Of a stretch of 35,499 nt of DNA, positions 11,354-16,715 are shown piece by piece. The stretch is from Alphaproteobacteria bacterium (GTDB lineage Bacteria; Pseudomonadota; Alphaproteobacteria; UBA9655), in assembly GCA_013815465.1 (NCBI GenBank), contig JACDGE010000017.1, positions 1 through 35,499 of the forward strand, in the 5' to 3' direction. The notes under the pieces were generated by a model. It ran no database searches. It saw only the letters and a program-made list of their open reading frames with translations, and was not told the origin of the DNA. Made by a program: the position numbers and the translations under genes. The first letter of the stretch is position 1. The number at the start of each line of letters is the position of its first letter.

Positions 11354-11811
11354 GCTGACGCAGACCCTGACTAAAGACTAATCTGCGGACTTTTAAGATA
11401 GGGTGAAGGGATTGCAACAATGCAGTTTCTTCACTCTTTTGTTTCCTCATGAATAGAATTTTCTCTGCTCGTTTCCTTATCGTGACGATCTTCCTGAGAC
11501 CACGCCACACAGGTTTTTCAGGGGAAGTGATGACCCCGGTGGGGGCGTTTTATAGTGCATTAAGTTGAAGATGCCTCAACTCCTCAGGTGTCATGCTGAA
11601 ATAAATTCAGTATGACAGTCTGGAGAGGTCATGATGGCTATGTGATCTCCAATTCAAACTAACTCACTATATAAAGAGGCGTGCCATTTGTAGCAAGGAT
11701 TTCTCTGCGATTTAGAGGCGTTTACCGTCCTAAACAACCGTTATTTTACCAATATTTCGAAATCTATGTTATATTATCGTACCGCTGTGTTTTTAAAGGA
11801 TAGGTTTAGCG
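11354..11811. other. 458-bp intergenic region with one hairpin repeat
   Basis: No convincing gene. A minus-strand frame at 11289-11510 is basic and overlaps the 64-aa gene, so it looks spurious. A hairpin at 11589-11617 (TGTCATGCTGAA, loop ATAAA, TTCAGTATGACA; one mismatch) resembles the GTCATGCTGAA unit in the element at 385-523. The last 60 bp upstream of ampG are AT-rich, with TATATT near 11768 as a possible -10. Confidence 0.5.
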
Positions 11812-13128
11812 TTGATTCACTCGTGGAAAGCAAGTCTTTTAACCTTTTGTGATAGGCGCATTCTCTCGATTTTCCTTTTTGGATTTTCAAGCGGGTTGCC
11901 CTTTTTGCTGACCCTTTCAACTCTCACCCTCTGGCTCAAAGAATCAGGTCTCAATAATAGAACAATTGGTCTTTTTGTTATCGCTACCATTCCGTATACC
12001 TTTAAATTTCTTTGGGGACCGATGGTGGATCGTATACGGATTCCCTTGCTTTTTGATCTTTTAGGTCAGCGGCGTAGCTGGGCTCTTGTCTCCCAACTCG
12101 CTCTTATTTTTATGTTGGTTGGATTGGGAGAGTCAGATCCAAAAGAATATATTTTCCAAACGGCTTTGTGGGCTTTTGGTGTGGCCTTTTTTTCCGCTAT
12201 TCAAGATATTGCCGTTGAATCTTATCGTATTGAAATTATCGATGAATACCAACAAGGTTCTGCGGCCTCTGCCACTTACCTTGGGTATCGAATGGGGATG
12301 ATGGCCTCGGGCGTGGGTGCCCTCTATCTTGCCGCAATTTTTTCATGGCAAACGGCCTATTTGGTCATGGCAGCGCTTGTCATGCTCGGTGTTCTGACAA
12401 CTTTCCTTAGCCCTTCTCCTCCCAATTTTGAGATTGACAGGGCGACACCCCCGAAACAGACACGGCGAAAACTATATGATCAGCTTCGAGAATGGATAAG
12501 GCTCACCTACGGAGTTCCTCTTAAGGATCTTTTACGGACGATAGACTGGCGCATTGTTTTTGCTTTTATTTTTTTTTATAAGGTTGGAGATACAACCCTT
12601 AGCGTAATGAACACGCCTTTCTTAGTGGAGCTAGGGTTCAGTAAGCTTGAAATTGCTAATGTAGCAAAATTTTTTGGCATTTCTTCGATGATGATAGGGG
12701 GTATTGTCGGCGGAATTTTACTCAATCGTTTTGGTATTCTTGCCTGCCTCATCCTCTGCGCGGCTCTACATGTTTTGACATCCCTGATGTTTGTGGTTCA
12801 AACCTTCGCAGGGTGTGATCTTAACGTGCTTATTTTTACGATTGGTTTTGAAAATCTAAGCTGTGGGCTAGGTGCTGCTTCTTTTATCGCCTATCTTTCG
12901 AGTCTTTGCCATACGCCTTATACGGCGACGCATTTTGCTCTTCTCTCATCCTTTGGATCTTTAGCACGTATCTTGCTTTCGGTTTTCTCCGGTTTTTTGG
13001 CAGACTTGCTTCCGTGGTCTCTCTTTTTTACGTTTACAGCTATTGCCTCTTTGCCCTGTTTATTTCTTTTAGTGTATGCTTCCCGTCACTTTCCTTCTTC
13101 TCCTTCATTCCTCAGAACGGCTACCTAA
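11812..13128 (+). CDS. ampG: AmpG-family muropeptide permease (MFS)
   Basis: A 438-aa major-facilitator permease with about 12 membrane segments. The N-terminal stretch FLFGFSSGLPFLLTLSTLTLWLKESG followed by IPYTFKFLWGPMVDR is strongly AmpG-like; AmpG imports GlcNAc-anhydroMurNAc and its peptides from the periplasm. DIAVESYRIEI and YRMGMMASG are further conserved loops. The start is TTG 11812, because the conserved region begins at once and no ATG precedes it. AAGGA lies 11 bases upstream, which is slightly far. The 3' end overlaps the convergent anmK end by 24 bp, and AnmK acts downstream in the same recycling pathway. Confidence 0.93.
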   Translation: MIHSWKASLLTFCDRRILSIFLFGFSSGLPFLLTLSTLTLWLKESGLNNRTIGLFVIATIPYTFKFLWGPMVDRIRIPLLFDLLGQRRSWALVSQLALIFMLVGLGESDPKEYIFQTALWAFGVAFFSAIQDIAVESYRIEIIDEYQQGSAASATYLGYRMGMMASGVGALYLAAIFSWQTAYLVMAALVMLGVLTTFLSPSPPNFEIDRATPPKQTRRKLYDQLREWIRLTYGVPLKDLLRTIDWRIVFAFIFFYKVGDTTLSVMNTPFLVELGFSKLEIANVAKFFGISSMMIGGIVGGILLNRFGILACLILCAALHVLTSLMFVVQTFAGCDLNVLIFTIGFENLSCGLGAASFIAYLSSLCHTPYTATHFALLSSFGSLARILLSVFSGFLADLLPWSLFFTFTAIASLPCLFLLVYASRHFPSSPSFLRTAT

Positions 13129-16100
13129 ACACAGCCTTCCCCCGCTTAAAGGATAGGGAACGCCCGTTGTGCCTGGGAGGCTAAGGGGGAGTTGTTTCAA
13201 GGATCTCACGGCGAGATAGGCAAAGGCCTGGGCTTCCAATGCATCCCCGTCCCATCCTTGATCACTGACTTTTGTTATGGGAGCTTTTAGGCGATCAGCC
13301 ATCATTCTTAGAAGAGTGACATTATGGGCCCCTCCGCCGGCAACGAGGTAAGAGGTGGGTCGCTCTGATAAATGGTCCAAAGCTTTTTCCAAGGTGGCTG
13401 CCGTAAGGGCCGTTAATGTTGCAACACCATCTTCAAAGGGGAGGGGGCGTACATCCTCTAGGAAGACCTTAAAGGTTCCCCGGTCTAAGGATTTAGGGGC
13501 TGCTTGGTTGAAATAGGCGTGGATCAGCCATTTGTCTAACAGTTTTGGGTTCACCTGACCAAGGGCTGCAATTTTTCCATTTTCATCCCAAGGAAGATCC
13601 GTATTTTCCCTCACCCAGTCATCGATGAGGCCGTTTCCTGGCCCCGTATCGAAGGCAATTAGCTCATCGTCTCGAGGGCCTATCCAAGTGATGTTGGCCA
13701 CCCCTCCGATATTGATGATGGCTAAGGGTTTGGGTAAATTTTTCGCAAGCGCTTGATGGAACAGAGGGACGAAGGGCGCCCCTTGCCCTCCATGGGCGAT
13801 GTCGTTGAGGCGAAACTGGTCAATGACGGGAACCTGGGTGAGGGTGGCTAGCAGATATCCATCGCCGATGATATGGGTCTCTCCGCGTTCTCCATGGCGT
13901 TGAGGCGGCTTGTGATAAAGGGTTTGGCCGTGGAATCCCATCACCTCGATGTTTTTAGGCTGCAGCCCTGCTTTGCGTAAAAGCTCCGCGACAACGTGGG
14001 CATGGAGTTCCGTAATGGTGCGTTCCAGCTCTGCGATTTCTGGCCCTGGGACGTGGCCATAGGCTTTGAGGATGGCTTTCTTTACGGGCTCAGGATAGGG
14101 GATAAAGTGGGTAGGTCCAAACGATTTGATGGACAGCCCATCTGTCTCCAGAAGGGCCGCATCAATTCCATCCCCGGATGTCCCTGACATAAGGCCAAGG
14201 GCTATGAGGGGACGTTTGTGTGTGGTGTCTGTGTTGTTTATATTTCGTCCTCTGTTTCCTGAATTGGGCTCTCCAAACCCCTTGTAGCGTCCTTTTCCTT
14301 CTGAACCAAGGTCAAAACAACCCCCCTGCATTCCCTCTAAAAGCGCCTCACATATCTGCGGGTAGCCATCCTTGGCACTGGCCATAGCGCGGACGACATT
14401 CCCTTCATAGGCTGGATTGAGGTCCCCAAAGAAGCTGACTTTTTGCTCGCCCTTGTAAGATAAGAGAACGCCGTCTCTCTCATCCAGGTCTTCTTGCTCT
14501 AAAAACGCAGGAGGAAGGGTACCGGTTGCAACCAGTAGGGTGCGGCAGGGCAGGGACTCAACCCCTGTGGATGTTTGGACAAGGAGAGCTTCGATGTGAC
14601 CCTCGGCATCGACGAGGATCTCAAGAGGAGTCGCGTTTTCCCGGAAGGTGACCCCTTCTGCCATGGCCAGCTGGAGTTCTTTGTGGTTGAGCCGATAGGC
14701 CGGCGAGTCCTGAAGGGTTTTGCGATACACAATGGTTGCTCTGCAATTTCTCTCCTCGGGCGTCATTCCCGCGAAGGCGGGAACCCAGGGAAAGTTCGTT
14801 TTGCTGAAAATTTTTTCCTGGGTCCCCGACTCGCGCTTCGCGCTCTCGGGGATGACGCTCAAAGATTTTAAACTCGCATAAGCCAAAGCTTCCGTGGCTG
14901 TATCCACGGCCGTAAGACCTCCGCCAATGACCAAGATGGGAGATTCAATCTCTAAATCATTTCTACCTTTTAGCTGAAGATCAACTAGAAATCGCGCAGC
15001 GGGGATGATGCCCTTGATGCCCTCATGGGGAATGGAGAGGGTGTTTGAGCGGCCCGCCCCTAGGCATAGGGCCACATGATCAAAGCCTTGTGCAAAGGCT
15101 GTCGAAAGAGAGAGGTCTCGGCCTAATTGGGTACGGTCTTGTAGGGTAAAGAGCGAGCGTCGTTCCAATAACAGCCGCACCAGATCCAGATAATTTTTAT
15201 CCCACCGGGGCGTAATTCCATATTCCATAACACCGCCAAAGCCCCCGATTGTTCGTTGGCTCAGAGGAGTTTTAAAGTTAGACCACTCTCTGATGGGTTC
15301 GGTTGAAAGGTGAGAGGGCAGGGGCTCGATCTTAAATCTGTCGATTCCATGAACCTGGTGGCCCTCATTCAACAAATAATGTGCAAGGGTAAAGCCCGCT
15401 GGGCCCATACCGGCCACAAGCACTCTATATCCGGAAGGGTGTTTGGGGAAGGGGCGCTTCAGGTTCAGGGGGTTCCAGCGGGAAAGCAGGCTGTAAATTT
15501 CCACGCCCCAAGGCAGATTGAGAATGCTGTCCAGAGTTTCCGATTCAATGCTGGGGATGTCAACCGGGTCTTGTTTTTGAAAAATGCACGCTTTCTCGCA
15601 ATCGTTGCAAATGCGGTGGCCTGTAGCTGCTACCATGGGGTTGTCCACCATAATCATGGCAAGAGCGCCCAATACATAGCCTTGGGTGCGGAGAGTATTC
15701 ATTTCTGATATCTTCTGGCCCAAGGGGCATCCTTTGAGGCCTTCTGAAAGCCCCTTCGCGCAGGAATCTTTGCTCTGGTTGTGGCAGAGAATGCAGTAAT
15801 GGGCCTGGTCGAGGGCATCGCGTGTATGGACACTTGGTGTGGTACAGTCAAATCCTTTTCGCTGGATTCTATCGGGTGACCTTAAAAGATTTTCCTCACG
15901 ATTTACGGGGAATAGGGATTCGGGATTGGTTTTTCTGGGCAATCTAAAGAGGGTTGTTGGTTTGTCCTGATGTATAGACCAGGCTGCATATCGGGTAGCT
16001 AGGGTTAAGAATTCCTGATGTGCTTCCCTATCTTCAAGAGCTGTAAGGGTATGTCGGGCAAAGGCTAAGTCCGAATACTTTTCTTTTAAAAATATTGCTA

Positions 16101-16503
16101 TGTCTGGTTGGAGATAGGATCCATCGAACCGTTGAGCTTCCTCTTGTGAATAAGCTTTTGCCGCTTGGCGCTGCACAAATAAGCGCTTGCAGCGATAGAG
16201 AGGGGCGAGGTGATAGGTCAGATCTTGTAAAGTTTGTATTTCTTTCTCAATACCAAAAAAGATCCCCATAAAATCTTCAACATGAGGGGCAAGGTCAATC
16301 AGGAGAGCGCTCTCTTCCATTTTTGTGAGAGAGGATTGGCGAGCGTTTTTTAAACGGGTTGTAAGATCTAGGGAGTGTTCCTCCAAAAAAGACAAGAAGA
16401 TATTGTCCAGCTTTTCAAGAGCTGAAGCGTCATAAAGATCATGAAAAGAAAAGTTGAAGGATAGAAACTTAGGCTTATTAACAAATTGAATCATATAAAT
16501 CAT
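13105..16503 (-). CDS. fusion: GltD-like FAD/NAD(P) oxidoreductase + anhydro-N-acetylmuramic acid kinase (AnmK)
   Basis: One uninterrupted 1132-aa frame. Residues about 1-210 are helical and unassigned. Residues 237-306 hold cysteines for Fe-S clusters (C237, C240, C248, C259, then C299, C302, C306), as in GltD-type proteins. A first FAD-binding VLVAGMGPAG is at 361-370 and a second dinucleotide motif ILVIGGGLTA at 523-532. CATLLVATGT-like sequence (about 653-662) and a FAD-contact FFGDLNP (691-697) follow. A low-complexity linker covers about 729-763. Residues 764-1132 (369 aa) are a complete AnmK beginning IALGLMSGTSGDGIDAALL and ending TTGVPYPLSGG; AnmK phosphorylates anhydroMurNAc to MurNAc-6-P. 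No plausible independent AnmK start is visible: the only nearby ATG (14190) lies inside the MSGTSG nucleotide loop. Residues about 549-582 are a palindromic insertion. The 3' end overlaps ampG. Confidence 0.88.
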   Translation of the reverse strand: MIYMIQFVNKPKFLSFNFSFHDLYDASALEKLDNIFLSFLEEHSLDLTTRLKNARQSSLTKMEESALLIDLAPHVEDFMGIFFGIEKEIQTLQDLTYHLAPLYRCKRLFVQRQAAKAYSQEEAQRFDGSYLQPDIAIFLKEKYSDLAFARHTLTALEDREAHQEFLTLATRYAAWSIHQDKPTTLFRLPRKTNPESLFPVNREENLLRSPDRIQRKGFDCTTPSVHTRDALDQAHYCILCHNQSKDSCAKGLSEGLKGCPLGQKISEMNTLRTQGYVLGALAMIMVDNPMVAATGHRICNDCEKACIFQKQDPVDIPSIESETLDSILNLPWGVEIYSLLSRWNPLNLKRPFPKHPSGYRVLVAGMGPAGFTLAHYLLNEGHQVHGIDRFKIEPLPSHLSTEPIREWSNFKTPLSQRTIGGFGGVMEYGITPRWDKNYLDLVRLLLERRSLFTLQDRTQLGRDLSLSTAFAQGFDHVALCLGAGRSNTLSIPHEGIKGIIPAARFLVDLQLKGRNDLEIESPILVIGGGLTAVDTATEALAYASLKSLSVIPESAKRESGTQEKIFSKTNFPWVPAFAGMTPEERNCRATIVYRKTLQDSPAYRLNHKELQLAMAEGVTFRENATPLEILVDAEGHIEALLVQTSTGVESLPCRTLLVATGTLPPAFLEQEDLDERDGVLLSYKGEQKVSFFGDLNPAYEGNVVRAMASAKDGYPQICEALLEGMQGGCFDLGSEGKGRYKGFGEPNSGNRGRNINNTDTTHKRPLIALGLMSGTSGDGIDAALLETDGLSIKSFGPTHFIPYPEPVKKAILKAYGHVPGPEIAELERTITELHAHVVAELLRKAGLQPKNIEVMGFHGQTLYHKPPQRHGERGETHIIGDGYLLATLTQVPVIDQFRLNDIAHGGQGAPFVPLFHQALAKNLPKPLAIINIGGVANITWIGPRDDELIAFDTGPGNGLIDDWVRENTDLPWDENGKIAALGQVNPKLLDKWLIHAYFNQAAPKSLDRGTFKVFLEDVRPLPFEDGVATLTALTAATLEKALDHLSERPTSYLVAGGGAHNVTLLRMMADRLKAPITKVSDQGWDGDALEAQAFAYLAVRSLKQLPLSLPGTTGVPYPLSGGRLCLGSRSEE
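14760..14858. repeat. in-frame palindromic element inside the GltD-like domain
   Basis: Exactly 99 bp (33 codons) bounded by inverted arms, GCGTCATTCCC at 14760-14770 and GGGGATGACGC at 14848-14858. Inner arms GGGAACCCAGG and CCTGGGTCCCC also pair. Two sub-hairpins are CCCGC-GAAG-GCGGG and the CG-rich stretch around 14826-14850. Translated on the minus strand it gives a hydrophilic segment ending WVPAFAGMTPE, placed between a Rossmann strand/helix and the CRATIVYRK strand. It resembles in concept the Rickettsia palindromic elements that sit in frame within genes. Confidence 0.85.
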
Positions 16504-16559: not shown

Positions 16560-16715
16560 GGGTCGAGGATAGGGCCACCTAATGAAAAAATAAGTTTTCT
16601 ACCGGTGGTGTCATCCCCGCGAAGGCGGGGATGACACAAATACATTGAAAACAATAGGTTAGAATCATTTGTCTTTAGCCTACGTGTTTTCATGAGGTGG
16701 CCCTGGGGTCGAGGA
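16560..16715. mobile_element. small non-autonomous inverted-repeat element with 10-bp direct repeats
   Basis: The inverted ends AGGGCCACCTAATGAAA (16571-16587) and TTTCATGAGGTGGCCCT (16688-16704) match at 16 of 17 positions. GGGTCGAGGA occurs immediately outside both ends (16560-16569 and 16706-16715), as expected of a target-site duplication. The centre contains a perfect 13-bp-stem hairpin (16608-16637). No transposase is encoded in the roughly 135 bp, so this is a MITE-like element moved by an enzyme encoded elsewhere. It lies between the 5' end of the fusion gene and the 3' end of the leucine dehydrogenase gene. Confidence 0.8.
16608..16637. repeat. perfect 13-bp hairpin inside the inverted-repeat element
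   Basis: GTGTCATCCCCGC, loop GAAG, then GCGGGGATGACAC. Its core matches the CCCGCGAAGGCGGG hairpin of the in-frame element at 14760-14858, so the two repeats share a building block. Confidence 0.9.

Follow-up and report, generated by a model that had tools for sequence, protein, structure and literature searches.

The locus described here raises the question of how a palindromic DNA element can stand in frame within the gene of a conserved enzyme, and what has become of the protein segment that homologs carry at this place. The element lies in the window, i.e., the whole stretch of 35,499 nucleotides that was analyzed. A preliminary description, made from the letters of the DNA, had placed a sequence with inverted arms and two nested hairpins at positions 14760 to 14858, in frame, as residues of about 549 to 582 of a fusion ORF containing a GltD-like enzyme. 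The arms, the hairpins, and the coordinates were confirmed by sequence inspection and folding, and the element was found to constitute residues 549 to 582 with the reading frame kept. The features of the locus are the following, all coordinates referring to the window:

13105..16503, minus strand: host ORF, GltD-like and read through into AnmK; 1132 aa, no stop across 1132 codons
13108..14214, minus strand: AnmK-coding part, which in congeners is a downstream gene of its own
14739..14876, minus strand: 46-residue stretch containing the element, codons 543 to 588; 51 conserved residues in eight congeners
within 14739-14876: repeat-region peptide predicted from the host ORF, WVPAFAGMTPEER
14760..14858, no strand assigned: heterodimer formed by two CGTC-tagged REP units in head-to-head orientation; 99 bp, codons 549 to 582 of the minus-strand ORF
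14761..14787, plus strand: canonical CGTC-1-type REP unit, CGTCATTCCCGCGAAGGCGGGAACCCA
14788..14818, no strand assigned: AT-richer spacer, the complementary ends of which (CCAGG/CCTGG) close the central stem
14819..14857, minus strand: second REP unit with CGTC tag, CCA tail, and 16-nt loop, CGTCATCCCCGA-GAGCGCGAAGCGCGAG-TCGGGGACCCA
16609..16636, no strand assigned: near-perfect symmetric single REP palindrome of the same family, upstream of the host ORF, TGTCATCCCCGCGAAGGCGGGGATGACA

CGTC-tagged REPs have been defined by a CGTC tag, a stem of 8 to 9 bp starting with AT, a loop of 4 to 5 nt, and a CCA tail. Most of them form dimers in head-to-head orientation, with the tags on the outside and 20 to 100 bp of spacer between the units; they are known mainly from alphaproteobacteria and have no linked transposase, and some families of the CGTC-1 and CGTC-3 types have been reported to possess atypical loops (Di Nocera et al. 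2013, PMC3733652). The unit at 14761 to 14787, assessed according to this source (PMC3733652), displays the CGTC tag, an AT-starting stem with one mismatch, a 4-nt loop (GAAG), and the CCA tail. More generally, an unpaired CGTC (or TGTC/CCTC) is expected at one end of a unit, and both units begin with CGTC; the plus-strand unit features the AT-starting stem of 8 to 9 bp, with its single mismatch, and both units end in CCA. The loop of the minus-strand unit (14819 to 14857) exceeds the 4- to 5-nt range, comprising 16 nt that form a hairpin in themselves. Judged by these features, the 99-bp element is a head-to-head CGTC-tagged REP heterodimer with one atypical loop. Its outer arms are mismatched at 1 of 11 positions, and for the gene (minus) strand of 14760 to 14858 the predicted structure comprises two hairpins besides an outer and a central stem, with a fold energy of -51.5 kcal/mol versus -33.1 +/- 3.9 kcal/mol for shuffled sequences (z = -4.8; 0/200 shuffles). 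The core of the element was found again at positions 16610 to 16629 with one mismatch, no such match being expected in the window by chance, in agreement with the earlier statement that it is shared with an intergenic element at 16608 to 16637. A generic REP scan picked 14761 to 14787 and 16609 to 16635. Identity with GTAG REPs was rejected, the terminal tag here being CGTC and no linked RAYT having been found. Palindromes of another REP type, tagged with TGTC, are located at 425 to 452 and 11589 to 11616 (TGTCATGCTGAA...TTCAGCAT).

The genome to which the window belongs (G000) comprises 2.26 Mb in 151 contigs. Searching it with the 99-bp sequence gave 80 matches, about ten of which extend over its full length or the greater part of it; their identities range from 81 to 95%, or from 85 to 95% for the same copies when a consensus-like query was used. 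An alignment of ten copies displayed invariant ends and a variable spacer, with lengths from 93 to 99 bp, and a length of 99 bp, or 33 codons, is shown by each of the two copies that reside in genes with conserved domains (gltD and ampD). The canonical half, searched as a 20-base pattern with up to 2 mismatches allowed, matched 118 times in this genome, and the reversed-pattern control had 0 matches. The census of REP units was taken from the genome stretches around the copies, 9 of the 118 half-element matches being without a listed place, and yielded more than 110 units, mostly in head-to-head dimers. Specifically, the fetched stretches contained 40 head-to-head, 1 tail-to-tail, and 2 head-to-tail dimers besides 28 single units, in keeping with the prevalence of head-to-head, the rarity of tail-to-tail, and the negligible share of head-to-tail arrangements among CGTC-tagged REPs. 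A full-length 99-bp dimer was not seen in the 14 congeners searched, which contain halves only, and the dimer therefore appears to have spread within its own lineage. One congener, JABDEE01, is an uncultured alphaproteobacterial MAG. The 99-bp copy on contig C47 (L008:1480-1620) is enclosed by a larger inverted repeat (GATGCACCCCACCTGA ... TCAGGTGGGGTGCATC), as though it had entered the loop of a hairpin.

The preliminary description had likened the element to the palindromic elements of Rickettsia and proposed a genome search, the lack of any other copy counting against it. The search instead revealed about ten copies, further ones in frame within genes among them, and the likeness in behavior stands: a dispersed palindrome is found in frame in several genes. 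The accompanying statement that its sequence family is different is not supported, because the CGTC-tagged REP superfamily, most features of which the element shares, takes in RPE-4 and RPE-6; for R. conorii, RPE-6 and RPE-4 were equated with CGTC-1 and CGTC-4 (PMC3733652).

At the GltD site itself, the interval from Y542 to A589 comprises 46 residues, mostly repeat-coded, versus 51 in eight proteins of congeners and near relatives (seven in the genus; more in others); alignment rows with 1 to 4 residues at the site are fragments ending there and were left out. The native segment features the motifs QVEK..L.R.E and EF(L/I)xH(A/G)xAxR (in short, QVEK..EFLxHA), which are conserved as far as Gammaproteobacteria. 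As 46 mostly repeat-coded residues stand where congeners have 51 conserved ones, native sequence has been replaced, and a clean insertion is rejected by the congener alignment. This modifies the earlier reading of a simple in-frame insertion of 33 codons: the comparison of the ORF with homologs, which had been proposed as a check, did identify element-free congeners, none of them carrying the same 33 residues in the absence of the palindrome, but instead of a clean empty site it revealed that a conserved helical segment is gone. At the DNA level, no empty gltD site was found among the relatives, the nearest of which is about 64% identical in protein. In the AlphaFold models, residues 547 to 586 of the protein studied here, located between a helix (529 to 548) and a strand (589 to 592), have pLDDT values below 50, whereas the native segment of a congener (L032) is predicted to form two ordered helices (521 to 549 and 558 to 575) with pLDDT values of about 83 to 90. 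Homologs in the PDB possess about 5 residues at this site (query positions 541/589 align to 343/349 of 9bov_A), from which it follows that the segment is not required for the core fold; yet the conservation of the lost QVEK..EFLxHA motif, which reaches to Gammaproteobacteria, means that the loop is not wholly dispensable.

The gltD-like gene is one of several struck by these repeats. REP units lie wholly inside ORFs of at least 200 aa in 14 of 101 cases, whereas positions taken at random from the same genome stretches do so in 69% of cases, as expected if most REP hits in genes are purged; the family is likewise described as mainly intergenic, with a minority in frame in genes. In-frame cases were verified by congener alignment and Pfam. 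In AmpD (Amidase_2), a dimer on the N-terminal side lengthens the protein by about 51 residues net with no apparent loss, and a second one of 99 bp lies in the linker ahead of the peptidoglycan-binding domain. AddA (UvrD-helicase) contains one in-frame dimer and, in addition, a repeat of a different kind (VIPDSIRDL), whereas AddB (PDDEXK_1) has an in-frame REP copy; most congeners are devoid of the inserts in AmpD, AddA, and AddB. Two congeners also have a repeat peptide at this AddB site, REP-coded in G005 and stemming from a different repeat in G001 (RHCEERQA...); the other congeners have none. Both 99-bp copies, the one in gltD and the one in ampD, share one reading frame (VIPESxKxxSGTQ...WVPAxAGMT). 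Averaged over the copies, about half of the six frames contain no stop codon, so that in-frame survival as such is unremarkable.

Several observations touch on these genes. Both subunits of one helicase-nuclease, AddA and AddB (L100), carry in-frame palindromic repeats, and the VIPDSIRDL repeat in AddA (L100:1-2259) belongs to another family, with related copies on contigs C39, C116, and C91. The AddB linker holds different repeat types in three species, comparable to the recB-family exonuclease of Rickettsia. Within the window, a repeat with ends like CGTCATTGCGACC...GCAATCC is present in two copies, at 25867 to 25922 and 35244 to 35299, and is apparently of the same kind as the repeat in AddB of G001. 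Finally, CcmF and CcmH form a single open reading frame in which a REP dimer serves as a bridge (L092:1433-3400).

Taking together the repeat family, its dispersal, the kept frame, the replacement, the predicted disorder, the local divergence described below, and the other in-frame copies in conserved genes, we propose, with a probability of roughly 85%, that a non-autonomous CGTC-tagged REP heterodimer entered the gltD-like gene and was tolerated in a peripheral loop of a gene under partial relaxation, the native hairpin being lost. The dimer would have belonged to a burst of about ten copies in this lineage and would now fill the loop by which helix alphaB of the NAD(P)H-binding Rossmann domain is joined to the strand that follows. 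The frame was probably kept because the dimer measures 99 bp, because about half of the six frames are stop-free, and because this loop position tolerates large changes. The native helical hairpin of 51 residues may have disappeared in the same event or by later deletions. Mobilization could have occurred by a transposase or by recombination. A transposase search covering the Y1_Tnp family revealed no REP-flanked dedicated enzyme: the single Y1_Tnp fragment of this genome has no REP in its 1.5-kb flanks, and the Y1_Tnp genes of relatives are not REP-flanked, except for two loci of G006 with REPs within 1.5 kb, where one REP pair lies near a Y1 gene (L219). In a class-level relative (L206), other palindromes occur near a Y1_Tnp gene. 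The repeat-coded peptide presumably has no positive function of its own, and the function of the NAD(P)H domain may be reduced or altered.

The state of the host ORF bears on a different explanation, according to which the gltD-like part is becoming a pseudogene and its open frame is accidental. The ORF comprises Fer4_20 (residues 217 to 325), Pyr_redox_2 (359 to 678), and AnmK (769 to 1116). In congeners, the GltD-like protein has a C-terminal PyrK-like domain and is followed by a separate AnmK gene; here, at 13105 to 14340, this domain and the stop codon are lost and the frame continues into AnmK. The earlier view of a GltD-like enzyme in an in-frame fusion is hence refined rather than overturned, loss of the C-terminal domain and read-through into AnmK being added to it. 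The lost domain was not found elsewhere in the genome, and at positions invariant in ten congeners the GltD part shows 32 changes of its own, versus 0 to 11 per congener, with AnmK, AddA, and AddB of the same genome having ordinary numbers; all this is as decay would have it. However, 1132 codons are free of stops, and G005, the nearest relative, also lacks the C-terminal domain (with the stop kept and the genes separate) and yet is otherwise normal. Furthermore, the changes are concentrated in residues 421 to 600 (15 of 66 invariant positions versus 5 of 153 elsewhere), and residues 1 to 360 keep 97 of 99 congener-invariant residues, so that the divergence is local and does not extend to the whole gene. 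A gene in decay is thus possible but rather doubtful; the substitutions amount to relaxation or co-change confined to part of the protein, the NAD(P)H domain, not to general decay.

It is unlikely that the element acts in mRNA or DNA, be it as a hairpin stabilizing or attenuating the gltD-anmK transcript or as a protein-binding site, with its coding capacity incidental. Such a role would suit the very stable fold and the consensus stems, which persist in ten copies and rarely show double changes, but over these copies the covariation term is +1.7 (slightly unfavorable), only 3 pairs show two-sided changes, and the copies occur in unrelated contexts. As covariation is negligible, shared descent explains the conservation of the stems. 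A functional RNA was also rejected on these grounds, the sole Rfam match being mir-505, which lies far below its threshold and is consequently attributed to chance. That the repeat-coded peptide was co-opted to replace the native hairpin, with compensatory changes in the Rossmann domain around it, would mean that new protein structure came from a mobile palindrome that took the place of native sequence instead of being added to it, and is in line with the kept frame, the clustering of changes around the element, and the conserved N-terminal half, but is very improbable given that the segment is predicted to be disordered and that raw repeat sequence is used, the same peptide appearing in unrelated proteins.

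Returning to the tolerated REP heterodimer, the occurrence of palindromic repeats in frame within proteins is already known as a phenomenon, and an uncultured alphaproteobacterial genus joins the short list of lineages in which such repeats enter proteins. The less usual feature, evident from the congener alignments, is that a conserved segment can be supplanted by such an element, the effect going beyond the padding of a loop. The AddB linker offers a natural test for hotspots of repeat insertion.

Among known systems, GTAG REPs and the RAYT-mobilized REPtrons are alike in forming REP dimers of similar size with known intragenic copies. RPE-1 of Rickettsia is likewise a palindromic element in frame inside genes; RPE-1, -2, and -3 have a separate origin, the ATGAC motif being almost absent from them (PMC3767692). 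Closer parallels are RPE-4, RPE-6, and RPE-7 (PMC3767692), which are ATGAC-ended palindromes of about 68 to 192 bp inserted in frame at solvent-exposed sites, and which strike the same type of gene (recB-family exonuclease/AddB), with differing repeat types at one orthologous site. As judged from their descriptions, they differ in lineage and dimer sequence, and whereas the Rickettsia inserts occupy the same site in all orthologs examined, most congeners here are without an insert. Compared with other CGTC-tagged REPs, one partner has the 16-nt hairpin loop in place of 4 to 5 nt, the 99-bp dimer was not found in the 14 congeners searched, and the GltD copy replaces native residues. The element resembles the CGTC-1 type of this superfamily in its tag (CGTC/TGTC), AT-starting stem of 8 to 9 bp, 4-nt loop of the plus-strand unit, and CCA tail, and it shares with the superfamily the head-to-head dimers (often heterodimers) with spacers of 20 to 100 bp, the small number of copies in genes, the lack of a linked transposase, and in-frame copies within genes, including repair genes of the recBCD type.
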